Source: an uncultured Ruminiclostridium sp. (lineage in GTDB: Bacteria > Bacillota > Clostridia > Oscillospirales > Ruminococcaceae). Taken from it: DNA of 46,358 bases. Made by a program: the position numbers and the translations under genes. The notes beneath the pieces are model-generated. The model made no database searches, was not told where the DNA came from, and saw only the letters and a program-made list of their open reading frames with translations. This document shows, piece after piece, positions 15,560-29,778 of this stretch; position 1 is the stretch's first letter, and each line of letters starts with the position of its first letter. The DNA is taken from contig CANRII010000007.1 of the NCBI GenBank assembly GCA_947630685.1, positions 1-46,358 of the forward strand. Direction: 5' to 3'.

Positions 15560-18500
15560 ATGAGTGAAGAATTGGTTTTTGGCGCTGAGACTGAAAATAA
15601 GCATTTTGATGTGGGCGTAGTCGGCTGGTGGTACAACGACAACTATGGCGGCACACTTACCTATTATGCTCTTAACAGACTTATCCAAAGCATGGGATAT
15701 TCTGTCCTTATGATAGAACGACCGACAGGCGACCCGAATTATAAGCCGAATTATTCCACCATCCCCAGAAGATTTGCAAAAAAATATTATAATATAAGCA
15801 AAAACTATCATCCGAATAAATTGGGGATACTCAATAATATGTGCAATGCGTTTGTTTCCGGTTCGGATCAGTTGTTCAGCCCTTATTTATGGGAATATTC
15901 GGGCCCGCCGTATTATCTGGATTTTACCGCACCCGACAAAAATACTATTTCATACGCTTCTTCTTTCGGCAATTCGTATTCAGCGAGCGAAAAGTTCAAA
16001 ATGACGATATCGTATTATCTTAGACGGTTCAACGCTTTATCGGTACGGGAAGATTACGGCGTAGATATCATGAGAGACGTTTTTGGATTAAATGTCAAAA
16101 AGGTATTAGATCCGGTTTTCGTTTGCGACCCTAAAGAGTATGATAAGCTGATAGCTCGTTCTTCTGCAGATACGAGCGGAAAATATTTTACCAGCTTTAT
16201 CCTTGACCCTGATGAGGGAAAAAGGAATGCTATACAAAATGCTAAGAAACAATTGGGGTTAAATTATGTGAATTTGATCCATGCTATGGATTTTGAAGAA
16301 AATATAAAGAAACTCGGCCTTGACAATGTCAAACCTAACGCAGATATAGAAGATTTCCTCAAATATTATAAAAATGCCGAGTTCATAATCACCGATTCGT
16401 TCCATGGTACCTGCTTTGCAATAATATTCCGTAAGCCGTTTATCTCAATAGCTAATAAGCAGAGAGGTACAGGAAGATTTGTTTCTTTGCTCAATGAGCT
16501 TGGTTTGCAGGATAGATTAGTCAACGACAGCTCCGAAATATTCAATAGACCAGAATTGTTTGAAAAGATAGATTATACCGAAACAGAGAATAGACTTCGT
16601 ACTTTACGTGAAGATTCGTATAACTGGCTGAAATCAGTTCTCAACACACCTGTCAGCAAAGCAAAAAACGATTTTCAAATAATGGAAAATCGTCAGAATA
16701 TCCTTGCAAACAGGGTAAATAAATTGTCTGAGCAGTTAAATGAGTTGAAAAAGAGTAGTTTGCTTAGTCCAATAAATACCTCATCAGCCGGCAGCAATGT
16801 GCAAACGGCACAGGGCGTCGTTGAGCAGAAAAATAATAACAGAAACAGCGTAACGGATTTGTTAGATATGTCTCGTTGCACCGGTTGCGGGGTGTGCGCT
16901 GAAGTATGTCCGACCGATGCCATTAAAATACAGCAGAATGTCAGAGGATTTTTGAATCCTACTATCGATGATAAGCAATGTATCAATTGCGGAAAATGTG
17001 CTTCAAAATGCATAGCTCTAAACCCTAAATACAATAAAAGTATTGAGCCTAAATGTTATGCTGTGATGGCAGACAACGATGTCAGAAAGAAAAGTTCTTC
17101 CGGCGGTATGTTCACTTTAGCGGCCGATTACATTCTCGGCATCGGAGGATATGTTTGCGGTGCGGCACTTGACGAGAATTTTAATCTAAACCACATTATT
17201 ATAGATAATATAAACGAGCTTGATAAGCTGCGTGGCTCTAAATATATTCAGAGCAACGCAGGACAAGTATACCCAAAAATAAAAGAATTGCTCGAAAAGG
17301 ATAATTATGTGCTTTTTACCGGCATGCCGTGTCAGGTAGCAGGATTATATTCTTATTTAGGCAAAGAATACAAAAAGCTGTACACAATGGATTTGTTGTG
17401 CCATGGCATTACTTCACAAAAGGTTTTTGATAAATATAGAGCCGAGGTACTTGAAAAAGACGGAAAACACCTTACCGATATTAAATTTAAGGCGAAAGAG
17501 CCGTGGGGCTGGCATGCAGGAATAAACGCCGATTTTTCAGACGGCTCTCATTATGCCGAGCCTTTAGAGCGTGATCCTTATTACATTGCGTATCTCAATT
17601 CTATATCTAAAAACACTTCTTGCGGTACATGTACCGTAAACAGATTGCCAAGACAGGGCGATTTAACGATCGGTGATTTCTGGGGAATCAATAATTATGA
17701 TGCTTCGCTTAACGACGGAAAAGGTACGTCTGTGGTTTTGGTCAACAGCAGCTCCGGTGATGAATTATTAAAAAAATCAGGCGAAAAAGCGATTCTATTA
17801 AAAGAGATGCCGCTGAAAGCTGCAATCGCCGGAAATCATTGCATAGAGCATCCTTATGCGTTGTCTAAGAATAACGCTGCGTTTTTTGATAATTTTGATG
17901 AACTGCCGTTTGACGCGCTTGCTCTCGGATGCCGAGATAATCGCATTTACGAACAGCAATATATCGAATTAATAAAAAAGGTGGCAAAAGAAGATATGGA
18001 ATATTATCTTCTGGCAAAGGCTGCCGTGAAAAACGCGCACGGGCGTCAAATCGTTACATGGATACGTTCTGGACGGTTTGAAAAGCTCCTAAAAGAGCAT
18101 TTTGGCGTAACAGTAAAGTTTGGCGTTTCACAAAGTGAAAACAAACTAAAACCGGGATATATCGAAAATTTTGATAAGCTTAAAGGTCAAAGCGATAAAT
18201 ATTATATTGTTTCGTTCGACCGTGCATATGATGAGGCTATATACAAGACATTAAACGATTATGGGTACACGGAAATTAAAGATTTCTTGTTCAGAAAACA
18301 CAAACCCATTGTTTTGGAAAACTATGATTGTTCTAAGGGCAGATATTCTGATGCTTACGGAAATACAATCGATGGATGGGATGCGGTTATAGGAAAGATC
18401 GTATTCAGAGGCGGAAATAATCATTTAATATTCGGAAAAGGAATACACAAAGTTCCAAATCTTGATATTAGTGTTCTTTCTAACACAACCATTCAAATAG

Positions 18501-20002
18501 GAGATCAAGTAGAATTTAATGATAAAGTACACATTATGTCAAGCTTTGAATATAACGGTTCTTCAAAAGTGATTATAAAAAATAATGTTAGATTTACAGA
18601 TGCGGTTATCAGAGTGGTAAATCATCCTCATGAATCATCACTTTTGATAAACGACAGTTGTACTTTTGAAAGAAATCTTCACTTGCATGTTAACTCCGGT
18701 AAAAAGATAATTATTGGCAGAGATTGTATGTTTTCACATGATATTAACGTAATGTCCGGTGATGGGCACACTATTTTTGATGTGAGCTCAGGCAGAAATA
18801 TCAATTCTGACTATGAAAATCAGCCCGCTTATAGGAATAGTATCGTTGTAGGAGAACATACATGGATCGGATGGGGAGCATTTCTGCTTAGCGGAACGAA
18901 TGTCGGCAATGGAAGTGTTGTGGGTGCGAAAAGTATTGTAAAAGGACAATATCCTAATAATTGTTCAATTGCAGGAAATCCCGCAAAAGTTGTTAGGAAA
19001 AACATTGCTTGGAGTCGTGATATGATTGCGATCGATATGAAAAAGCAATGTGGAAGTGAAGAATATGTAAGGCTGACCGGTCATGCAAAGCCTCCTATTT
19101 CCGGATTAAAAGTTCTTGTCATCGGCGGGACAAGATTTATGGGAGTTTGTCTTGTACGAGAATTGCTGTCACTTGGCAATAATGTAACTATAGCAACCAG
19201 AGGAAATAAAAAAGATAATTTCGGAATGCATGTTGAACGTATAAAAATGGATGTTACCGATGCCGAAAGCGTAAAATCCGCACTTGACGGAAAACACTTT
19301 GACGTAGTTTTTGACAATTTGGCGTATACAGCGAAAAATGTAAAGAATGTTTTAAGCTCGGTAAGCTGCAAAAAATACGTTCAGCTATCAAGTATAGCGG
19401 TTTACGCTGATCGTAACCTAAATCTAAGCCTAAACCTAAAACCAAACCAATTTGATCCCTATAGGGTAAATTTGCCGAAGGCAGAGCTTGCTGATACCGA
19501 CAATCCGAATTATGCTAACGGAAAGAGGCAAGCCGAGGCAATGGTGTATCAACAGTTTAAGAATATCCCCGCTGTTACTGTAAGAATACCATATGTAACT
19601 AAAACCGAAAGAATATATTGGTATTGCCTTCATGTGGTAAATGAGCAGCCGATGGATATCCCTGATACATCAAAAGGCTTTACATTTATTAGGGATACCG
19701 AAGTAGGCAAGTTTTTACCGTGGATAGCTGCGCAGGATTTTACCGGACCTATCAATCTTGCAAGCGAAGGAATGGTAACGATAAAGACAATGCTGGAGTA
19801 TATAGAGAAAAAAACCGGAAAGAAAGCAATTATAGACACATCAAACGGCGAGAAAGGTCATTTTAATATTTTTAATGAAAAGTCCTTTACATTAGATATG
19901 AGCAAGACAAAGCAATTAGGCTATACTTCATCAAATATTAATGACTGGTTTTGGAGGTTAATGGATGAGTATATCGAAAGAGCAATGAGAGATAAGCGAT
20001 AG
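15560..20002 (+). CDS. 1480-residue fusion: pyruvyl transferase, Fe-S/FrhB-like, hexapeptide acyltransferase, NAD-dependent epimerase
   Basis: One uninterrupted frame carries four modules. (1) Residues about 17-345: polysaccharide pyruvyl transferase, with GSDQ near 100 and DSFHG at 279-283; adds pyruvate ketals from PEP. (2) About 430-800: two 4Fe-4S motifs (Cys 440/443/446/450 and 474/477/480/484), then a coenzyme F420 hydrogenase beta-subunit-like domain with SSSGGMF near 511 and Cys 688/691. (3) About 950-1150: left-handed beta-helix acyltransferase of the WbbJ/maa type (VVGEHTWIGWGAFLLSG, GNPAKVV). (4) About 1183-1480: extended SDR with GGTRFMG at 1189-1195 and Tyr1318/Lys1322. A short coiled linker joins modules 1 and 2. 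Pyruvyl transferase and FrhB-like genes are often neighbours in glycan loci, but all four in one chain is unusual. Base composition becomes AT-rich along this gene. Confidence 0.85.
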   Translation: MSEELVFGAETENKHFDVGVVGWWYNDNYGGTLTYYALNRLIQSMGYSVLMIERPTGDPNYKPNYSTIPRRFAKKYYNISKNYHPNKLGILNNMCNAFVSGSDQLFSPYLWEYSGPPYYLDFTAPDKNTISYASSFGNSYSASEKFKMTISYYLRRFNALSVREDYGVDIMRDVFGLNVKKVLDPVFVCDPKEYDKLIARSSADTSGKYFTSFILDPDEGKRNAIQNAKKQLGLNYVNLIHAMDFEENIKKLGLDNVKPNADIEDFLKYYKNAEFIITDSFHGTCFAIIFRKPFISIANKQRGTGRFVSLLNELGLQDRLVNDSSEIFNRPELFEKIDYTETENRLRTLREDSYNWLKSVLNTPVSKAKNDFQIMENRQNILANRVNKLSEQLNELKKSSLLSPINTSSAGSNVQTAQGVVEQKNNNRNSVTDLLDMSRCTGCGVCAEVCPTDAIKIQQNVRGFLNPTIDDKQCINCGKCASKCIALNPKYNKSIEPKCYAVMADNDVRKKSSSGGMFTLAADYILGIGGYVCGAALDENFNLNHIIIDNINELDKLRGSKYIQSNAGQVYPKIKELLEKDNYVLFTGMPCQVAGLYSYLGKEYKKLYTMDLLCHGITSQKVFDKYRAEVLEKDGKHLTDIKFKAKEPWGWHAGINADFSDGSHYAEPLERDPYYIAYLNSISKNTSCGTCTVNRLPRQGDLTIGDFWGINNYDASLNDGKGTSVVLVNSSSGDELLKKSGEKAILLKEMPLKAAIAGNHCIEHPYALSKNNAAFFDNFDELPFDALALGCRDNRIYEQQYIELIKKVAKEDMEYYLLAKAAVKNAHGRQIVTWIRSGRFEKLLKEHFGVTVKFGVSQSENKLKPGYIENFDKLKGQSDKYYIVSFDRAYDEAIYKTLNDYGYTEIKDFLFRKHKPIVLENYDCSKGRYSDAYGNTIDGWDAVIGKIVFRGGNNHLIFGKGIHKVPNLDISVLSNTTIQIGDQVEFNDKVHIMSSFEYNGSSKVIIKNNVRFTDAVIRVVNHPHESSLLINDSCTFERNLHLHVNSGKKIIIGRDCMFSHDINVMSGDGHTIFDVSSGRNINSDYENQPAYRNSIVVGEHTWIGWGAFLLSGTNVGNGSVVGAKSIVKGQYPNNCSIAGNPAKVVRKNIAWSRDMIAIDMKKQCGSEEYVRLTGHAKPPISGLKVLVIGGTRFMGVCLVRELLSLGNNVTIATRGNKKDNFGMHVERIKMDVTDAESVKSALDGKHFDVVFDNLAYTAKNVKNVLSSVSCKKYVQLSSIAVYADRNLNLSLNLKPNQFDPYRVNLPKAELADTDNPNYANGKRQAEAMVYQQFKNIPAVTVRIPYVTKTERIYWYCLHVVNEQPMDIPDTSKGFTFIRDTEVGKFLPWIAAQDFTGPINLASEGMVTIKTMLEYIEKKTGKKAIIDTSNGEKGHFNIFNEKSFTLDMSKTKQLGYTSSNINDWFWRLMDEYIERAMRDKR

Positions 20003-23101: not shown

Positions 23102-25270
23102 ATGATTGCTTATTTTGCACCTTTAGCAACTGCACTATTTCAGGCAATTGCACACAAGCTCAACTACAATCATGAAGAAGAAACAGTTTTGTTTATACAA
23201 AGTACTGTTTACACCAACAAAGGGTTGATCTATTTGGCGGATGAATTCGAAAAAGAAAACATATTTACTCATGTTATTCCGGCAGATTTTTTTGCTCCAC
23301 GTGATATACCGTTGGATGCAGCTGATGAAGTTGCTGAAAGAAGGATTGAAGAATATTTTGACAATCTGTTTTCGGAATTGAAATTTGATCCCCATTCTTT
23401 TGATGAAATATATGTATTAAATGATAATCATGGTGCTGATTTTACAATATATTTTAATCTAAAAAAGATAAATTACACATGGGTTCAAGTTACTAGAAAC
23501 GGGATACCTGGAGTTCATCCGGTTTTGAATAAACATTATGGAAAATTGCTATTAAAATATCAATGCCTTGGAGCATTTGCCGAATATGCCAAACCATGCT
23601 TTAGAGCAGATTCTGATGTTCCATTGCAGCAACTTAATGGTAAGCCATATACTACATGGAATTTAGCGGAATCTTTTAATAACATAAACAATATTGATTT
23701 AGAACATTTATATAAATGTTATCATCTTGAAGATATAGATTATGACTTATCTAATAACTATAATAGTGTTCTTCTGATTAAAAACAGTTATGGAATGATG
23801 AGAGAAGCTGTTATAGGTGTTGCTAGAAAAAAGAACAAAGTATCAGCTTATGTTGGATTTGATAATTATCCTGAAATAGCTATATTTTCTGTTATGGATA
23901 AAGTTTCACTTGACTTTTATACGCCAGATGCTAGTAGAATTTTTATCAAATGTCATATTAATTGTAAATTTGATCAGAGTGATGCTGAAGCATATTATGG
24001 TGTTAATGCTACTGTCCTTCCTAATGTGGCATTTCAAGTATTGTCAAGATATTTTAAGAAAAAATCAATAATATTTGGAGATGTTATAGGCACAGCTTCT
24101 TCTGCGTTGGACGAGTCTACAAGTATGATATGCCAAAGGCAGCATATATTAACTTATTCTTTCTCGAAAACTTGGTGGTTCTACATAAGTATTTACACAG
24201 CTGTCAATTTGGCAAAAGAACTAAATATGAAGAGGATATGCACCACTTCCCATTTGATATCTCAAGTGAAGCTTTTAGCAAAAGCTAATAATTATGATGT
24301 TATAGTATCTGCGTTTGCCTATCAAAAATTAGAAAATACAAAAAATTCTATGATAATTGTTGATCTTTGTGATTGGACAGAGTTTAATTGTGATATTACC
24401 CCTAAGAATAGTGTTATAGCTTTCTTAAACGACTCATTATCTGACAATTTTATAAAAACAGAAAATTTTGATTTTGTAACTCCACTATTAATAAAAAAGG
24501 ATATTTTGGAAGAACAACCTTGTGATATTTTATGCAGGAACGAAACGGTTTGGGTATATTCCGCCAATCGTGATACAAGACAAAAAATAAGGAATTTTAC
24601 AATTAGTAAAACATTAAAAAACCTTGGGATATATATACATGTTGACGGAATAAGTTTCCCAGAATCTGTAAATATGTTTAAGACCAGTCAAATGAAAGCA
24701 AGGGTTGACGAACTTCAAACATATATTGCTGAGCTTGAAAATAAAATCACACATTTTACTCACATGTGCATTTCGCCAAAATCAGAAATCGGTATTTTAA
24801 GAAGCATCGACAATATAAATGAGTATCTTGATGTTTTGAGTTTTATAAAAGAAAAATATATTATTTTTCTTTCTGTAAAAGATACTCCCGGTGATGGCCT
24901 TACTGCAAAGATTATAGAAAAATTAAAACAGCTTGGCTTCTCCAATTTTAGTAAAGAACTATGGAGGATGTATGCAGGTGTTGTTGTAAATGGACATATA
25001 CTGTGTGACAAGTCTGCAGACGAAGTTGAATTGCCGGTTATTTATGAATATAAGGATTTATATGAAAAACCTTACTTTTATATAAGCAGTCATGCATGGC
25101 GTAAAGAAAATAAATCCGAAATTATAATAAATGGTGTGGATTATTCTGCTAATATAAGAGGAATCAATATTGTTGTTTATGATAATAACACCGAAAAAGT
25201 CCTGGATTCTATCGGATTTGATAATCATGGCGGCGAAGAAAGATTCATTCGCAAAGAAATTGATATATGA
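23102..25270 (+). CDS. Unrecognised 722-residue glycan-locus protein with possible ILEI-like C-terminal domain
   Basis: I do not recognise the first 500 residues, which alternate beta and alpha like a GT-B or polysialyltransferase-type fold (VLFIQSTVYTNKGLIYLA at the start; WVQVTRNGIPGVHP near 130). A coiled segment lies near 530-560. The last 150 residues (YIIFLSVKDTPGDGL..., INGVDYSANIRGINIVVYD, VLDSIGFDNHGG) resemble the interleukin-like EMT inducer (ILEI/FAM3) domain known at the ends of bacterial carbohydrate-related proteins. No signal peptide or strong membrane helix is seen. It starts 3 bases after the previous stop. It is the most AT-rich gene here: line 23401-23460 has 12 G/C of 60. 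It is likely foreign DNA and may be a transferase; the function is not assigned. Confidence 0.6.
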   Translation: MIAYFAPLATALFQAIAHKLNYNHEEETVLFIQSTVYTNKGLIYLADEFEKENIFTHVIPADFFAPRDIPLDAADEVAERRIEEYFDNLFSELKFDPHSFDEIYVLNDNHGADFTIYFNLKKINYTWVQVTRNGIPGVHPVLNKHYGKLLLKYQCLGAFAEYAKPCFRADSDVPLQQLNGKPYTTWNLAESFNNINNIDLEHLYKCYHLEDIDYDLSNNYNSVLLIKNSYGMMREAVIGVARKKNKVSAYVGFDNYPEIAIFSVMDKVSLDFYTPDASRIFIKCHINCKFDQSDAEAYYGVNATVLPNVAFQVLSRYFKKKSIIFGDVIGTASSALDESTSMICQRQHILTYSFSKTWWFYISIYTAVNLAKELNMKRICTTSHLISQVKLLAKANNYDVIVSAFAYQKLENTKNSMIIVDLCDWTEFNCDITPKNSVIAFLNDSLSDNFIKTENFDFVTPLLIKKDILEEQPCDILCRNETVWVYSANRDTRQKIRNFTISKTLKNLGIYIHVDGISFPESVNMFKTSQMKARVDELQTYIAELENKITHFTHMCISPKSEIGILRSIDNINEYLDVLSFIKEKYIIFLSVKDTPGDGLTAKIIEKLKQLGFSNFSKELWRMYAGVVVNGHILCDKSADEVELPVIYEYKDLYEKPYFYISSHAWRKENKSEIIINGVDYSANIRGINIVVYDNNTEKVLDSIGFDNHGGEERFIRKEIDI

Positions 25271-25322: not shown

Positions 25323-26321
25323 ATGAAAGTATCGGGAAGTATTTTAGCAGTAAAATCAGATTATTTTGAATATGCCAAAATTTTGAAATTTGCAAAAATA
25401 GATTGTCTGCATATAGATATTTTCCAGGATGAAAAGGAATTTTCGGTGGCGGATACTTTGAGATTCGACAATTCTTATCCGCCGTTAGATGTTCACCTGA
25501 TTTTCGAATATATACCGGATGAGTATATAGATATATTAAACAAAGCTAATGTTAGATACTTGAATGTGCAGTATGAAAATTTATTAAACAAAGATGATAT
25601 TTTGAGAATATCAGACAGGTTTAGTGGAAATTTTGGGATTTCTGTCACAAGCGGTACAGACTTGAATGTGATAGACAAGTACATAGATAATATTTCTCAG
25701 GTATTGTTCATGTGCAGCGAACCGGGAATATCCGGGGCGGAATTTGACAACTCTAATTTTGAGCGAATAGAGTCAGTCCATGATAAATATCCATCTTTAA
25801 GCCTTTTTGCCGATGGCGGCATAAATAATATTATTAGTAAGAGGATGGAAAAGCTGGGGATAGATATGGTGGTATCGGGCTCTTATCTTTGTAAAGATAT
25901 GGGGCAGTTAGGTATGAATGCATATAGTTTGAAATACATGGATGAACAGGGTGTAAATGTTACAAGGATCATGATAAAAGTCAATTTTCTGCCAATTTTA
26001 ACTAAGCAGGCATCCTTTATGGAAGTGATCAACACGATGAATCATTATCGTATGGGTATTGTAATGGTCGCAGATAAAGAAAATCTACAGGGGATTATTT
26101 CAGACGGAGATATCCGCAGGGGATTTATTCAATTCGGACAAACCATATTCGAAAAAAATGCAGAAGAAATCATGAATAGTAGACCGTATACAATAGATAG
26201 CAGTAAAAATATAGAAGATATTTATTCAGCCCTTTTAATCATGAGGAAGGGAATTGACGTGGTACCTGTGGTAGAAAATGGAAAATTGCTGGGTGCTGTC
26301 GATTTACGGATTGGAATGTGA
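25323..26321 (+). CDS. Ribulose-phosphate 3-epimerase-like protein fused to two CBS domains
   Basis: 332 residues. Residues 1-205 form a ribulose-phosphate-epimerase-type TIM barrel: SILA at the start, His30 and Asp32 (LHID), His58 (DVHL) and Asp164 (ADGG) match the four metal ligands of the family, and VSGSYL matches the phosphate site. Residues about 212-332 are a CBS pair including GIISDGDIRRG, the form found in arabinose-5-phosphate isomerase (KdsD) and in nucleotidyltransferase/CBS fusions. It heads the ulosonic-acid-like module, where KdsD would be expected, so it may shape the pentose-phosphate supply under nucleotide control. AAAAGGAGG precedes the ATG, and TATAAT at 25288-25293 without a good -35 leaves open an internal promoter. 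Confidence 0.78.
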   Translation: MKVSGSILAVKSDYFEYAKILKFAKIDCLHIDIFQDEKEFSVADTLRFDNSYPPLDVHLIFEYIPDEYIDILNKANVRYLNVQYENLLNKDDILRISDRFSGNFGISVTSGTDLNVIDKYIDNISQVLFMCSEPGISGAEFDNSNFERIESVHDKYPSLSLFADGGINNIISKRMEKLGIDMVVSGSYLCKDMGQLGMNAYSLKYMDEQGVNVTRIMIKVNFLPILTKQASFMEVINTMNHYRMGIVMVADKENLQGIISDGDIRRGFIQFGQTIFEKNAEEIMNSRPYTIDSSKNIEDIYSALLIMRKGIDVVPVVENGKLLGAVDLRIGM

Positions 26322-26364
26322 TCAGTTGAATTAGCATAATTAAAAAGTAGCAGGAGGTAAAAGT

Positions 26365-27069
26365 ATGCAGAAAATCATAGGATTTGTACCAGCAAGGGGA
26401 GGATCCTCAAGAGTTCCAAGAAAAAACATGAAGGAGATAGGCGGGTTGCCCATGTTTCTAAGAGCATGTTATAATCTTCATCAAGTACTCCCAAAAGAGA
26501 ATATTGTTGTAGATTCTGACGACGCAGAAATTTTGGATTTAGCAGAACGACATGGTTTTGGTATATTGAAACGACCGGATGAATTAGCAACCAACGGGAC
26601 AGACGGAAATGCATTTTTCAGATGGGAAACTTCTAATTTTCCGGATGCCGATATTTATATTCAGCATCTTCCACCAATGCCTTTTTTATCAAAAGATACA
26701 TTGTTGGAAGGAATCAATGCGGTTAAGAGCGGAGAATATGATTCCATTGTCTGCGTTGGAAAGGAACATTATTATTTATGGGATCTGGAGAAAAAGGTGC
26801 CCAAATATGATCTGAAACATATACCAAATAGCTTTACATTAGAGGAAACAACGTTTGAAACAATGGGATTTTATGTAATCAGCAGAGAAGCGCACTTAAA
26901 GGAGGGGCTTAGGATAGGAGAAAACTATAAAATGATATCCGTAAATAAAATTGAGCAAATAGATGTAAATTATCCGGATGACTTTCTGCTGGCGGACGCT
27001 GTAGAAAAGGGACTTGACAAAAATTCCGTCTACAAGTCTAGCAATATAATTTCCCTCGGGGGGAGCTAA
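26365..27069 (+). CDS. Acylneuraminate-type cytidylyltransferase (NeuA/LegF-like)
   Basis: 234 residues. The N-terminal FVPARGGSSRVPRKNMKEI (residues 7-25) is the CTP-binding loop of CMP-sialic-acid synthetases; VDSDDAEI and HLPPMPFLS fit the next parts of the fold. It joins CMP to a nonulosonic or related acidic sugar. AGGAGG lies 7 bases before the ATG, 43 bases after the epimerase/CBS gene. A second cytidylyltransferase (KdsB-type) follows 34 bases later, which is odd because one usually suffices per pathway; either two acidic sugars are activated or this one backs up the damaged kdsB. It is shorter than two-domain NeuA forms and so catalytic only. Confidence 0.85.
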   Translation: MQKIIGFVPARGGSSRVPRKNMKEIGGLPMFLRACYNLHQVLPKENIVVDSDDAEILDLAERHGFGILKRPDELATNGTDGNAFFRWETSNFPDADIYIQHLPPMPFLSKDTLLEGINAVKSGEYDSIVCVGKEHYYLWDLEKKVPKYDLKHIPNSFTLEETTFETMGFYVISREAHLKEGLRIGENYKMISVNKIEQIDVNYPDDFLLADAVEKGLDKNSVYKSSNIISLGGS

Positions 27070-27103
27070 CAGCTAAAAGAAGTTATACAGTGAGGTACGT
27101 CGC

Positions 27104-27857
27104 ATGAAGATCGTATGTACCATCCCGGCCCGTTATAAAAGTTCGCGTTTCCCGGGCAAGCCTCTGGCCGATTTGTTTGGAAAGCCTATGATTTGGTGGG
27201 TATATCAGAAGGTAAAAACTGCAAAGGGAATTCACGAGGCATATGTGGCTACTGACAGCGAAATCATAAAAGACGCATGCGAAGGATATTCAATCCCTGT
27301 GGTTATGACAATCAGAAAAACATCCGACGGGCGTCGACAGAATCGCCGAGGTCGCGGTAAAGATACCGGCGGACTTCTATTTGTTGGTTCAAGGAGATGA
27401 ACCGTTGATCGAAACCGACCTTATCGAGGAAATGGTCAGACATGTTCAAGAAGAAGCTGATCCAAATTATGTCAGGACATTCAGGACGCCGATCAAAAAT
27501 CCCGTTGATGCGGTCAATAGTACTATTATAAAAATTGTAACAGACAGAAAAGATAATGTCTTGTTTGCATCAAGAAGCCCTATACCTTATCCTAAGGCAG
27601 GAATTGATTTTGAATATTGTAAGTCGGTGGGGATTTATGCGTATCCAAGAGATATTCTTTTGAAATATGCACGTCTGACAAAAGGAGAGCTGGAAAAAGC
27701 GGAAGATCATGATTTTATGAGGATGCTGGAAAATGAAATAAAAATAAAAGCGTATAAGCGGGATACGTCAACTATATCCGTGGATACGCCAAAGGATTTA
27801 ATTCGTATAAAAAATATAATGGAGGATAAAAATGGAACTAATATCAAAAGGAAATGA
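27104..27857 (+). pseudogene. kdsB: 3-deoxy-manno-octulosonate cytidylyltransferase, frameshifted
   Basis: Two frames together make a normal KdsB of about 250 residues, the enzyme that makes CMP-Kdo from CTP and Kdo. The first frame (27104 on) has the KdsB loop IPARYKSSRFPGKPLADLFGKPMI and runs to VVMT; the family sequence resumes in the next frame with SEKHPTGVDRIAEVAV and LLVQGDEPLIE, ending at 27857. One surplus A at 27310-27311 (ACAATCAG where ACATCAG is expected) explains the break exactly. There is no long homopolymer or slippery heptamer there. It is either a recent inactivating mutation or a sequencing error. If real, the first frame stops near 27400 and activity is lost. It overlaps the next gene by 26 bases. 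Confidence 0.85.
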
Positions 27858-28644
27858 GCTTAACCAGAATATTGCGATTGACGGAGAAGAAATGTTTGAC
27901 CCAAAAACTTGTCGCGTCATGGCCGGTCCGTGTGCGGTAGAGAGCAGGGATCAGATCATGTATACAGCTGAAAGGTTGGCAAACATGGGGATTCGTATAT
28001 TTAGGGCTGGAGCATTTAAGCCCAGAACGAATCCATACGCTTTTCAAGGGTCGCATGAACAGGGTCTTGTTTGGCTGGAAGAAGTGAAAAAGACATATGG
28101 GATGAAGATAATCACAGAAACATCTGATGCCACTAATTTTTCTGCAGTTGAACAAGTGACAGATATCATACAGATAGGTGCAAAAGCAATGTATGATCAT
28201 GCCCTGTTGCGCGCTGCAGGGAAATCTTCTAAACCGGTTTTGTTAAAGCGACATTTTGGAGCGACAATTGATGAACTTTTCAAAATGGCAGATTACGTTT
28301 TGGTTGAGGGAAATCGCAATTTATTGCTGTGTGAAAGAGGAATCCGCACTTTTGAGACTTCGAGTAGGTTTACATTAGATTTGTGTGGTGCTGCTGTGAT
28401 AAAAAGGGATAGCAAGGCTCCATTGATCTTAGATCCAAGCCACTCAATGGGCTACAGCTTTGGAGTGCCTGATATTGCGAAAGCTTGCGTGGCGTTTGGA
28501 TGTGAGGGAATTTTGATAGAGGTTCATCATAATCCTGAACAGGCATTGTGCGATAAGGATCAGGCACTGAATCTTGATCAATTCAGAGAATTGTATGAAA
28601 CAATGAAAAATATAGGAAATGCTGTTGGCAAGGAGGTAAAATAA
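27832..28644 (+). CDS. DAHP synthase-type (type I beta) 3-deoxy-ulosonate-phosphate synthase
   Basis: 270 residues of the KDO8P/DAHP synthase barrel, which condenses PEP with an aldose phosphate. AGPCAVES (31-38), KPRTNPYAFQG (64-74), LLKRHFGATIDE, CERGIRTFE, DPSHS and IEVHHNPEQAL are the DAHP synthase type I beta signatures. The KPRT motif marks DAHP synthases, whereas KdsA has KANRS at that place; the Cys of AGPC and the His and Glu later are metal ligands. It therefore should use erythrose-4-phosphate and yield a C7 product. Yet it sits between kdsB and a kdsC-type phosphatase with no shikimate genes around. It has no chorismate-mutase or regulatory extension. It could be misassigned KdsA-like, but the motif argues otherwise. 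Confidence 0.85.
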   Translation: MELISKGNELNQNIAIDGEEMFDPKTCRVMAGPCAVESRDQIMYTAERLANMGIRIFRAGAFKPRTNPYAFQGSHEQGLVWLEEVKKTYGMKIITETSDATNFSAVEQVTDIIQIGAKAMYDHALLRAAGKSSKPVLLKRHFGATIDELFKMADYVLVEGNRNLLLCERGIRTFETSSRFTLDLCGAAVIKRDSKAPLILDPSHSMGYSFGVPDIAKACVAFGCEGILIEVHHNPEQALCDKDQALNLDQFRELYETMKNIGNAVGKEVK

Positions 28645-29279
28645 TGGCAGAATTAGATAAGAGGAAACTTTGTAGTGGCTTGTTTTCCGATGTCATGGAT
28701 CGTATGGGATGGAAACATCAGATAATAACAGGCTTTTTAAGAAATCAAAATGTAGTAAGTTTTATAGGCAGAGCACGTACTGTTTTGATTGAAACGAAAG
28801 ATACAGATGACGAAAACATTCGAACAGGATTGTCATTTTTGGGACAGTGTAAAAAGGGAGACGTACTTGTTGTAGAGGGAAGTAAAGAATTTGCATATTT
28901 TGGAGAATTAATGACAAAGTTGTCAACGCAGATGGGGATAGAGGGAGTAGTAATTGACGGTTTGACACGAGATACGAATTATACTCATTCTCCGGAAGTG
29001 AAACTTCCAATCTTGGCTAAGGGGTATTCACCGGTAGATATTAAGGGGAGAGGACGTGTTCAGCGGACAGATGTACCAATCTGTATCGACAGTATCGAAA
29101 TAAGACCAGGAGATCTGATTTATGCGGATAATGAAGCTGTATGTGTGATACCAAAGGAAATAGAGGAAGAAGTACTTGAAAAAGTAAAGGAAAAGCTGGA
29201 AGATGAAGAACGCATAACGCGGTTAATCGAATCAAAAATATCAGTTGAGGAGTTGCTGGAACAGGTTACAGAGTTTTAG
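28644..29279 (+). CDS. RraA-family protein (pyruvate-aldolase type)
   Basis: 211 residues of the RraA/HMG-aldolase fold. FGELMTKLSTQMGIEGVVIDGLTRD (from about 86) carries the family's G-E-L and DGxxRD motifs; Arg109 and Asp110 correspond to the residues that bind oxaloacetate/pyruvate and the divalent metal in 4-hydroxy-4-methyl-2-oxoglutarate aldolase. So an active lyase is plausible rather than the RNase-E inhibitor role of E. coli RraA. Its ATG overlaps the preceding TAA by one base (TAATG), so it is translationally coupled to the DAHP-synthase-type gene; the two may act on the same 2-keto-3-deoxy acid. The C-terminal 40 residues form a charged helix. Substrate unknown. Confidence 0.8.
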   Translation: MAELDKRKLCSGLFSDVMDRMGWKHQIITGFLRNQNVVSFIGRARTVLIETKDTDDENIRTGLSFLGQCKKGDVLVVEGSKEFAYFGELMTKLSTQMGIEGVVIDGLTRDTNYTHSPEVKLPILAKGYSPVDIKGRGRVQRTDVPICIDSIEIRPGDLIYADNEAVCVIPKEIEEEVLEKVKEKLEDEERITRLIESKISVEELLEQVTEF

Positions 29280-29298
29280 CGTAAGGAAGGAAAAAACT

Positions 29299-29778
29299 AT
29301 GTCCAATATAAAGTTGCTAATCATGGATGTAGATGGTACATTGACAGATGGAACGATAAATATCGGTTCAAATGGAGAAGTCTTTAAGAAATTTTATGCA
29401 AGAGACGGATTGGCAATTCTTTACGCGCGTGATAAAGGAATCCAGTCGGTTATACTTACATCAAGAAAGTCCGAAATTGTCGAGCGGCGCGCCGGAGAAT
29501 TGAAAATTGAGTATGTGCTTCAGGGTGCGGCAAATGACAAAGCAAGTGTATTAAAAGAGTTTTTGACCTCCTATGGTTACGAAAAGCAAGAGGTGGCATA
29601 TATAGGAGATGATATAAACGATTTGGAGGCTATGTCATTATGCGGGATCGTAGGATGTCCCGGAGATTCGGTTCCAGAAGTAAAAAAAGCGGCAGATTAT
29701 ATCTGCAAAAATAATGGTGGGCATGGAGCGGTCAGAGAGTTTATTGATTGGCTTATTTGTAGCGGAGAGAATAAATAA
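29299..29778 (+). CDS. kdsC: KdsC-type HAD phosphatase (3-deoxy-ulosonate phosphatase)
   Basis: 159 residues, the usual size of KdsC, which removes phosphate from Kdo-8-phosphate. MDVDGTLTDG (nucleophile Asp10 and acid Asp12), TSRKSEIVERRAGEL and GDDINDLEAM (metal Asp) are the HAD motifs in the KdsC arrangement, without a cap domain. The start is set by AAGGAAGG 7 bases before ATG 29299; the open frame extends upstream without a site. It is the last gene of the glycan locus, 19 bases after the RraA-family gene. It presumably dephosphorylates the product of the DAHP-synthase-type enzyme before CMP activation. Confidence 0.87.
   Translation: MSNIKLLIMDVDGTLTDGTINIGSNGEVFKKFYARDGLAILYARDKGIQSVILTSRKSEIVERRAGELKIEYVLQGAANDKASVLKEFLTSYGYEKQEVAYIGDDINDLEAMSLCGIVGCPGDSVPEVKKAADYICKNNGGHGAVREFIDWLICSGENK

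Follow-up and report, generated by a model that had tools for sequence, protein, structure and literature searches.

A candidate operon for a CMP-activated ulosonic acid other than Kdo, with a synthase of DAHP synthase lineage, in an uncultured Ruminiclostridium

Introduction

In the pathway to 3-deoxy-D-manno-octulosonic acid (Kdo) activated with cytidine monophosphate (CMP), the enzymes involved are KdsD, KdsA, KdsC and KdsB. The synthase of that pathway, KdsA, carries the motif KANRS, whereas synthases of 3-deoxy-D-arabino-heptulosonate 7-phosphate (DAHP) carry KPRT. Other described systems that invite comparison are the nonulosonate pathways to neuraminic (Neu), pseudaminic (Pse), legionaminic (Leg) and 2-keto-3-deoxynonic (KDN) acids. 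Here a tight run of six genes is described, located at 25,323-29,778 on the plus strand of a 46,358-nucleotide stretch from an uncultured Ruminiclostridium sp. (contig CANRII010000007.1 of assembly GCA_947630685.1; the whole stretch is called the window below). It is on balance probable that this operon encodes a dedicated pathway to a CMP-activated 3-deoxy-2-ulosonic acid other than Kdo.

Results

The six genes are separated, in order, by 43, 34, -26, -1 and 19 bases, and inspection by eye found a Shine-Dalgarno-like stretch ahead of all six starts, that of KdsB being the weakest. On the plus strand, family models recover the six families in the order that a first-pass annotation of this DNA had named, at spacings between -26 and 43 bases. 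Here and below, 'over' separates a model score from its cut-off.

25323..26321, + strand: RPE-like epimerase fused to a KdsD/KpsF-type CBS pair, 332 aa (PF00834 plus PF00571, two CBS stretches)
26365..27069, + strand: NeuA/PseF-like cytidylyltransferase, 234 aa (PF02348, CTP_transf_3, 53.8 over 22.6)
27104..27857, + strand: KdsB-like cytidylyltransferase, broken by a frame change (CTP_transf_3, KdsB subfamily; PRK13368)
27832..28644, + strand: DAHP synthase-lineage synthase without the N-terminal regulatory part, 270 aa (TIGR01361, 294.5 over 267.75)
28644..29279, + strand: RraA-like class II aldolase-type protein, 211 aa (PF03737, 94.9 over 24.5)
29299..29778, + strand: KdsC-type phosphatase of the HAD family (TIGR01670, 139.6 over 106.95); the start is probably ATG 29299 and not TTG 29245

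The motif of the synthase reads AFKPRTNPYAFQG, that is KPRT and not KANRS, just as the first-pass annotation had reported. The protein scores over the curated cut-off of TIGR01361, which describes the B. subtilis-type DAHP synthase, and under that of the KDO8P_synth model (114.7; cut-off 314). Its match to PF03102 (NeuB) is weak (23.8 over 22.1) compared with the 215 bits obtained for DAHP_synth_1. Among solved structures the best matches are PDB entries 4c1k, 4grs, 1zco and 1rzm, and type I-beta DAHP synthases rank first; DAHP synthases score 193-247 bits and KDO8P synthases at most 82 bits among the matches listed (50 PDB sequences). We take 4c1k and 1zco to be from Pyrococcus furiosus and 1rzm to be from Thermotoga maritima.

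A phylogenetic tree was built from 60 rows, after 14 near-duplicates had been removed from an initial 74. In it, the synthases of the window, of loci L101, L102, L103 and L104 and of phages L017 and L018 form one clade with support of 100/99. This clade lies on the DAHP synthase side, and a branch of 2.06 sets off 10 KdsA-type rows as a group of their own. Open branches make up 24 of the 57 inner ones, and the support concerns the clade itself, not its place among the DAHP synthases. The rows hold no characterised enzyme, and the comparison with characterised enzymes rests on the PDB matches. Judged by its sequence, the synthase thus belongs on the type I-beta DAHP synthase side and not with KdsA, from which the first-pass annotation had expected it to stand apart.

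Despite the KPRT motif, which is kept in 7/7 clade rows, the pocket of the operon enzyme appears to be non-standard for a DAHP synthase, because clade residues at the sites for phosphoenolpyruvate (PEP) and acceptor differ. When the seven clade rows were compared with 52 others (5 plasmid and 47 viral; the 15 rows from loci L080-L096, which are of KdsA type or outlying, were left out), position 118 was Lys in 7/7 clade rows and Arg in 52/52 others, and position 121 was Tyr or Trp in 7/7 clade rows and Gln in 46/52 others. Cys185, Leu200 and Met206 occur in all seven clade rows and in none of the other rows with a letter there. In what we take to be T. maritima numbering, position 118 is presumably the PEP-binding Arg of the GAR motif and position 121 presumably lies beside the acceptor phosphate. 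Residues C34, H204, E230 and D241, which we assume to be the DAHP synthase metal ligands, are invariant across the clade.

These data bear directly on an alternative in which the synthase uses erythrose-4-phosphate as such, so that the product would be CMP-3-deoxy-heptulosonate, a seven-carbon (C7) acid, with the epimerase and the RraA-like protein only feeding or tuning the route. The first-pass annotation had derived this acceptor from the KPRT motif; the motif stands, but it does not decide the acceptor, as the presumed PEP- and acceptor-site residues are altered in all seven rows. DAHP synthase lineage, the universal KPRT and the invariant presumed metal ligands all argue for erythrose-4-phosphate. 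Lys at position 118 and Tyr or Trp at position 121 argue against it, and a dedicated epimerase bearing a KdsD-type CBS pair would be superfluous for this acceptor. Because the epimerase does bear such a pair, the acceptor may instead be specially made, and may have five carbons. Direct use of erythrose-4-phosphate is a serious contender that falls somewhat short of an even chance; it overlaps the non-Kdo ulosonate pathway proposed here, of which it is the C7 branch.

The operon synthase is predicted not to be the housekeeping enzyme, because other DAHP synthase genes exist both in its own genome and in all four other genomes tested. The source draft genome (2.25 Mb, 174 contigs, 96.7% complete) has PF00793 at three places, and its two further DAHP synthases are long and, by eye, of another type. 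At least one further DAHP_synth_1 gene is present in 4/4 other operon-synthase genomes tested (G1097 not included). Matches of the synthase were found in 32 plasmid records; the five neighbourhoods opened all hold long DAHP synthases (337-363 aa), which were used as outgroups, and L012, L014 and L015 lie beside aro genes while L013 and L016 do not. At the strict threshold of E<=1e-80, only one of 398 phylum genomes, the window's own, has the synthase.

Relatives of the operon were collected in several ways. A genome-contig scan with an RraA alignment relied on two short peptide patterns, so that pattern-less members were missed; it gave 72 stretches and five relatives, at loci L100, L101, L102, L103 and L104. 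L111 came from a sampled RraA-profile search, and L017 and L018 from a viral scan with a mixed DAHP synthase alignment. Viral scans with RraA and NeuA-like alignments again returned only the L017 and L018 records, and single-protein viral scans with the synthase and with the RPE-CBS protein returned 13 stretches each and no relatives. L100, whose contig starts at RraA so that only RraA and KdsC are seen, was left out, and eight loci were counted: the window, L101, L102, L103, L104, L111, L017 and L018.

In 8/8 of these loci the RPE-like, RraA-like and synthase genes (hereafter the trio) form one gene run. As each locus was found via one trio gene, only two trio genes are independent per locus. 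The CBS pair on the epimerase is present in seven loci (it is absent from L017), the NeuA-like gene in five (window, L101, L102, L103 and L018) and the KdsC-type phosphatase in four (window, L101, L102 and L103), with a further copy in L100. KdsB occurs in two, broken in the window and intact in L101. Gene order in L102 is as in the window, minus KdsB; in L018 no KdsC was found by BLAST, and a 127-aa open reading frame (ORF) ahead of RPE-CBS has no NCBIfam match. Since the NeuA-like gene recurs in 5/8 loci and KdsB in only 2/8, the former appears to be the recurring activating enzyme and KdsB to be dispensable. Read from these loci, the conserved unit is the trio with an optional NeuA-like gene and an optional KdsC, and not the six-gene set of the first-pass annotation, in which KdsB proved to be absent from six loci and broken in one. 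With much of the set kept in independent loci, the arrangement does not appear to be one of chance.

The CBS half of the epimerase is the part to which the TIGR00393 (kpsF) model aligns, with 60.4 bits, below the cut-off of 203.7. The best PDB entry for the CBS pair is 4o9k, which we take to have been solved with CMP-Kdo; if 4o9k does hold this ligand, feedback on RPE-CBS by a CMP-ulosonate would be likely. In the barrel, Ser4, Ser6, His30, Asp32, His58 and Asp164 are invariant in 7/7 rows including the window, and the last four are presumably the metal-holding and proton-moving residues of RPE. The usual RPE substrate loop, taken from the genome's own housekeeping RPE as reference, is replaced and is three or four residues shorter in 8/8 rows. 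Because this loop is missing, the substrate is probably not ribulose-5-phosphate, or else is held otherwise. TIGR00393 gave three matches in the own genome, none over cut-off and the best being the CBS half of RPE-CBS, so that no KdsD was found. At strict thresholds, RPE-CBS was recovered from 1/148 family genomes (E<=1e-30) and 1/391 class genomes (E<=1e-25), in each case the window's own, and among 48 matching plasmid records none covered 80% of the query, the 10 listed being annotated as ordinary RPE.

In the RraA-like protein, Arg109-Asp110 is invariant in 8/8 rows and aligns with the catalytic Arg-123/Asp-124 of 4-hydroxy-4-methyl-2-oxoglutarate/4-carboxy-4-hydroxy-2-oxoadipate (HMG/CHA) aldolase, in which the pair is reported to serve in pyruvate enolate stabilisation and metal binding (PMC5065237). 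As the Arg-Asp pair is kept, the RraA-like protein could act on a 4-hydroxy-2-keto acid by breaking its C3-C4 bond and making it anew. The protein also matches the RraA half of PRK07028 with 78.5 bits, below the cut-off of 593. At E<=1e-40 the RraA profile found 2/329 and 1/97 genomes, the centre genome being among them each time. In one further study the mention of rraA concerns solely a locus boundary (PMC11641403).

The model nearest to the NeuA-like protein is PseF (59.6 bits, below the cut-off of 205.7), and its relatives, which are 88, 76, 64 and 48% identical, each adjoin the same synthase type. L103 encodes a single 395-aa protein in which a KdsC domain follows NeuA, and this fusion supports the CMP activation of a dephosphorylated acid that the first-pass annotation had proposed. 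The best PDB match of the window KdsC is 3e81, an acylneuraminate cytidylyltransferase entry, followed by KdsC entries. For KdsB the family assignment of the first-pass annotation was right, but the gene is not intact: its frame changes between two ORFs, 27104-27400 and 27381-27857, and PRK13368 covers 1-76 in the first ORF and 94-241 in the second. An intact 257-aa homologue sits at the same operon place in L101 (8441-9214; 273 over 255), so the window copy would reflect a local lesion or an assembly error. The stretches retrieved for L102, L103, L104, L111, L017 and L018 yielded no KdsB. Upstream of the L101 operon lies an MptE-like gene (39.3 over 34.6; a second fragment is below cut-off). 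Maf transferases of the MptE-like family use CMP-nonulosonates, and this gene is a weak hint as to how the CMP sugar is used.

Outside the operon, the own genome, at 96.7% completeness, has no KdsA, KdsB or NeuA that exceeds its cut-off, and the genome's PF02348 matches are the operon genes and one below-cut-off place on another contig. No canonical Kdo set was found in this draft genome, which agrees with the non-Kdo product of the first-pass annotation. Ordinary Kdo could nevertheless be made from recruited parts, if RPE-CBS produced arabinose-5-phosphate and the synthase Kdo-8-phosphate, with KdsC and NeuA-like or KdsB completing the route. The CBS pair is indeed nearest to KdsD/KpsF, a KdsC-type phosphatase is present, and a KdsB-family gene occurs in two loci and is over the curated cut-off in L101; moreover, the P. 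furiosus DAHP synthase takes five-carbon aldose phosphates. Against this, the synthase is distant from KdsA and carries KPRT, KdsB was not found in six of the eight loci whereas the NeuA-like gene is present in five, and the Kdo pathway has no place for RraA. On this evidence an ordinary Kdo pathway is unlikely. Lower still stands the notion that the operon is a merger of two pathways, in which KdsB and the NeuA-like enzyme activate different acids: the paired cytidylyltransferases of the window and L101 would fit it, but the run has a single synthase, and KdsB is missing from the like-ordered L102 and broken in the window, which makes such a merger improbable.

Three trio loci take a different form. 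In L104 and L111 the gene run consists of RraA, RPE-CBS, a synthase extended at its N terminus, a HAD_2 protein and a thiamine diphosphate (ThDP) enzyme; beside these runs lie a glucose-1-phosphate cytidylyltransferase (429.5 and 328.5 over 300.25, respectively) and RfbH (709.9 and 695.5 over 423), and L104 also has a cytidine diphosphate (CDP)-glucose 4,6-dehydratase. In phage L017, RraA, RPE, synthase and ThDP enzyme follow one another, with RfbH some 3.6 kb upstream (462.3 over 423). For the ThDP enzymes, the score against 8rph, presumably the YerE-like JanthE, is 447 bits in L104 and 385 bits in L017; against the next solved relative, an acetolactate synthase, it is 274 and 261 bits, respectively. 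No ThDP enzyme was recognised by eye among the window ORFs. The 33-kb L017 record contains no PF02348 gene, and the seven PF02348 matches of the L104 genome are all on contigs other than that of the trio. Since no NeuA-like gene was found in the stretches retrieved for these three loci, CMP activation would not be the sole use of the trio, and the sequences suggest that it may feed either CMP activation or C-branching.

According to one review, some YerE-like enzymes (ErwE and MMAR_2332) favour long hydroxylated keto-acid donors, and YerE itself favours pyruvate (PMC12247030). A dephosphorylated 3-deoxy-2-ulosonate is such a long hydroxylated keto acid and so would suit the donor role. It can tentatively be suggested, as the less probable extension of the pathway, that the trio is a portable maker of a polyhydroxylated alpha-keto acid (a 3-deoxy-2-ulosonate), of a stereoisomer made by no described synthase, with two outputs. 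The NeuA-like enzyme would lead to CMP activation in the window, L101, L102, L103 and phage L018. A YerE-like ThDP ligase in L104, L111 and phage L017 would transfer the keto-acid donor onto CDP-4-keto-3,6-dideoxyglucose, giving very large branched sugars. Against two outputs it counts that a pyruvate-using YerE would account for the genes for the ThDP enzyme and RfbH with no part for the trio. The Gram-positive surface polymer named by the first-pass annotation as the destination is too narrow a setting, as the trio occurs in two phages as well, and in three loci that have branched-sugar genes.

PHROGs matches include a baseplate wedge protein in the L018 record, and phage DNA polymerase, clamp loader, exonuclease and thymidylate synthase in that of L017; both are thus tailed-phage records and not stray bacterial contigs, and may be T4-like. 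Upstream of the L018 trio (L018/L098, 36-2666) lie a NeuB-like synthase and a second NeuA/PseF-like gene, so that the L018 NeuA-like gene adjoins another CMP-sugar pathway. PHROGs labels the synthase simply as a DAHP synthase-like auxiliary gene, and at E<=1e-5 it returned nothing for the window RPE-CBS, NeuA-like and RraA proteins. Two IMG/VR contigs were noted separately. One, L022 (2224-3720), encodes a 498-aa cytidylyltransferase-DAHP synthase fusion, with an adjoining ORF that is 3-dehydroquinate synthase-like by eye; the other, L038 (2388-4555), has by eye, in a row, NeuA-like, DAHP synthase-like (KPCT for KPRT) and KANR-type KdsA-like ORFs.

Upstream of the operon lies one further feature:

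23102..25270, + strand: 722-aa orphan with an ILEI-like C-terminal domain (PF15711 at 686-711, 27.5 over 27)

This gene stops 52 bases upstream of RPE-CBS and may be part of the same gene run; its product is a possible transferase. It has zero PDB matches at E<=1. Its single other match in 391 class genomes is from the same genus and covers residue 562 onward only, and for the first 560 residues no homologue was found in those genomes. A 32-kb part of a G015 contig was considered as a syntenic counterpart and rejected: the C-terminal domain of the 722-aa protein was the sole match to 15 window proteins, 14 of which had none. The closest named relatives for the operon are Clostridia metagenome-assembled genomes with isolate names starting with Lapin. 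GC content is 0.32-0.40 at about 16-30 kb, against 0.43-0.53 in the rest of the window. The low-GC part and its upstream edge hold glycosyltransferases, a pyruvyl-transferase/ferredoxin/acetyltransferase/epimerase fusion and the 722-aa orphan adjoining the operon, and the region looks like an exchangeable, acquired surface-sugar cluster. The fusion (15560-20002) is a single-frame protein of 1480 aa with polysaccharide pyruvyl transferase, ferredoxin/FrhB-like, hexapeptide acetyltransferase and NAD epimerase domains. Scans for promoters (43 hits vs 29.8 +/- 5.8 in shuffles) and for terminators (5 vs 3.6 +/- 1.4) were not used as evidence.

Discussion

In the proposed non-Kdo ulosonate pathway, the RPE-like epimerase with its KdsD-type CBS pair would tap a sugar phosphate of the pentose-phosphate pool as the committed, feedback-controlled entry. 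Together with the RraA-like protein it would make the aldose-phosphate acceptor or correct the stereochemistry around it, either through an isomerisation that precedes the synthase step or through a retro-aldol epimerisation at C4 that follows it. Addition of PEP by the synthase would yield a 3-deoxy-2-ulosonate phosphate, which would be C7 if the acceptor is a tetrose phosphate and C8 if it is a pentose phosphate. The KdsC-type phosphatase would take off the phosphate, the NeuA-like enzyme would form the CMP ester, and a glycosyltransferase would transfer the acid to a surface polymer encoded by the surrounding low-GC cluster. The order of synthase, phosphatase and CMP ester follows from the enzyme families and from the NeuA-KdsC fusion of L103. 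With at least two options live, a seven-carbon acid from erythrose-4-phosphate is possible, and so is a C8 acid, for which the KdsD-type CBS domains and the altered acceptor pocket leave room. The plant-type 3-deoxy-lyxo-heptulosaric acid was rejected as product, there being no bacterial case among the literature matches listed.

Several points weigh against this pathway. What the RPE-like and RraA-like proteins are proposed to do is guesswork bounded by the chemistry of their families. We know of no RraA-fold protein that acts as an isomerase or 4-epimerase, and the position of what we take to be the third HMG/CHA aldolase residue, Asp-102, is Glu88 in 8/8 RraA rows. Recurrence in few loci is the sole tie between the trio members beyond neighbourhood, and the NeuA-like gene was not found in the fetched stretches of L104, L111 and L017. 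The window KdsB is broken; should activation really depend on KdsB, the window copy would fail. Finally, no glycosyltransferase for the CMP sugar was identified.

An unregulated DAHP synthase for aromatic amino acids, sitting in a polysaccharide cluster by chance, can be all but dismissed: the family models do name it a DAHP synthase, but the genome has two others, the enzyme falls in a clade of its own that recurs with RPE-like, RraA-like and sugar genes, and the context speaks against shikimate, no aro genes being recognised by eye among the listed window ORFs. The operon thus probably represents a CMP-activated non-Kdo ulosonate route, and among the literature matches listed neither a pathway of this type nor this gene set was found described. 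If correct, it would be a route to a CMP-activated sugar acid without KdsA or NeuB, in which a shikimate-type enzyme has been turned to surface sugars and KdsD regulatory domains have been transplanted onto another fold. The enzyme clade has clear signature residues and is testable. The route may also be a source of the keto acids, long and hydroxylated, for which a preference is reported in some YerE-like branching enzymes (PMC12247030). Phages carry this module as well, the trio being present in L017 and L018.

Compared with the Kdo pathway, the operon likewise combines a CBS-pair entry enzyme, a PEP aldol synthase, a KdsC-type phosphatase and CMP activation. It differs in having an RPE-like barrel in place of the SIS isomerase, a synthase of DAHP synthase lineage, a NeuA-like enzyme and not KdsB as the recurring cytidylyltransferase, and an additional RraA-like enzyme. 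With type I-beta DAHP synthases the operon enzyme shares sequence family, KPRT and the presumed metal-site residues, whereas Lys118, Tyr/Trp121, Cys185, Leu200 and Met206 set its clade apart, as does a context of sugar genes and not aro genes. The nonulosonate pathways have in common with it a NeuA/PseF-type cytidylyltransferase and a KdsC/KDN9P-type phosphatase, fused in L103, but the operon has no separate NeuB-family synthase. YerE-like C-branching of CDP-4-keto-3,6-dideoxyglucose (yersiniose, erwiniose and caryophyllose) is matched in L104, L111 and L017, where a YerE-like ThDP enzyme stands just behind the synthase and RfbH is present, whereas the window operon is without a ThDP enzyme. 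Lastly, the hexulose-6-phosphate synthase-RraA fusion (PRK07028), which we take to be archaeal, also pairs a ketose-phosphate enzyme with an RraA domain; here the two are separate genes, the epimerase family replaces hexulose-6-phosphate synthase, and the context is that of a sugar acid.

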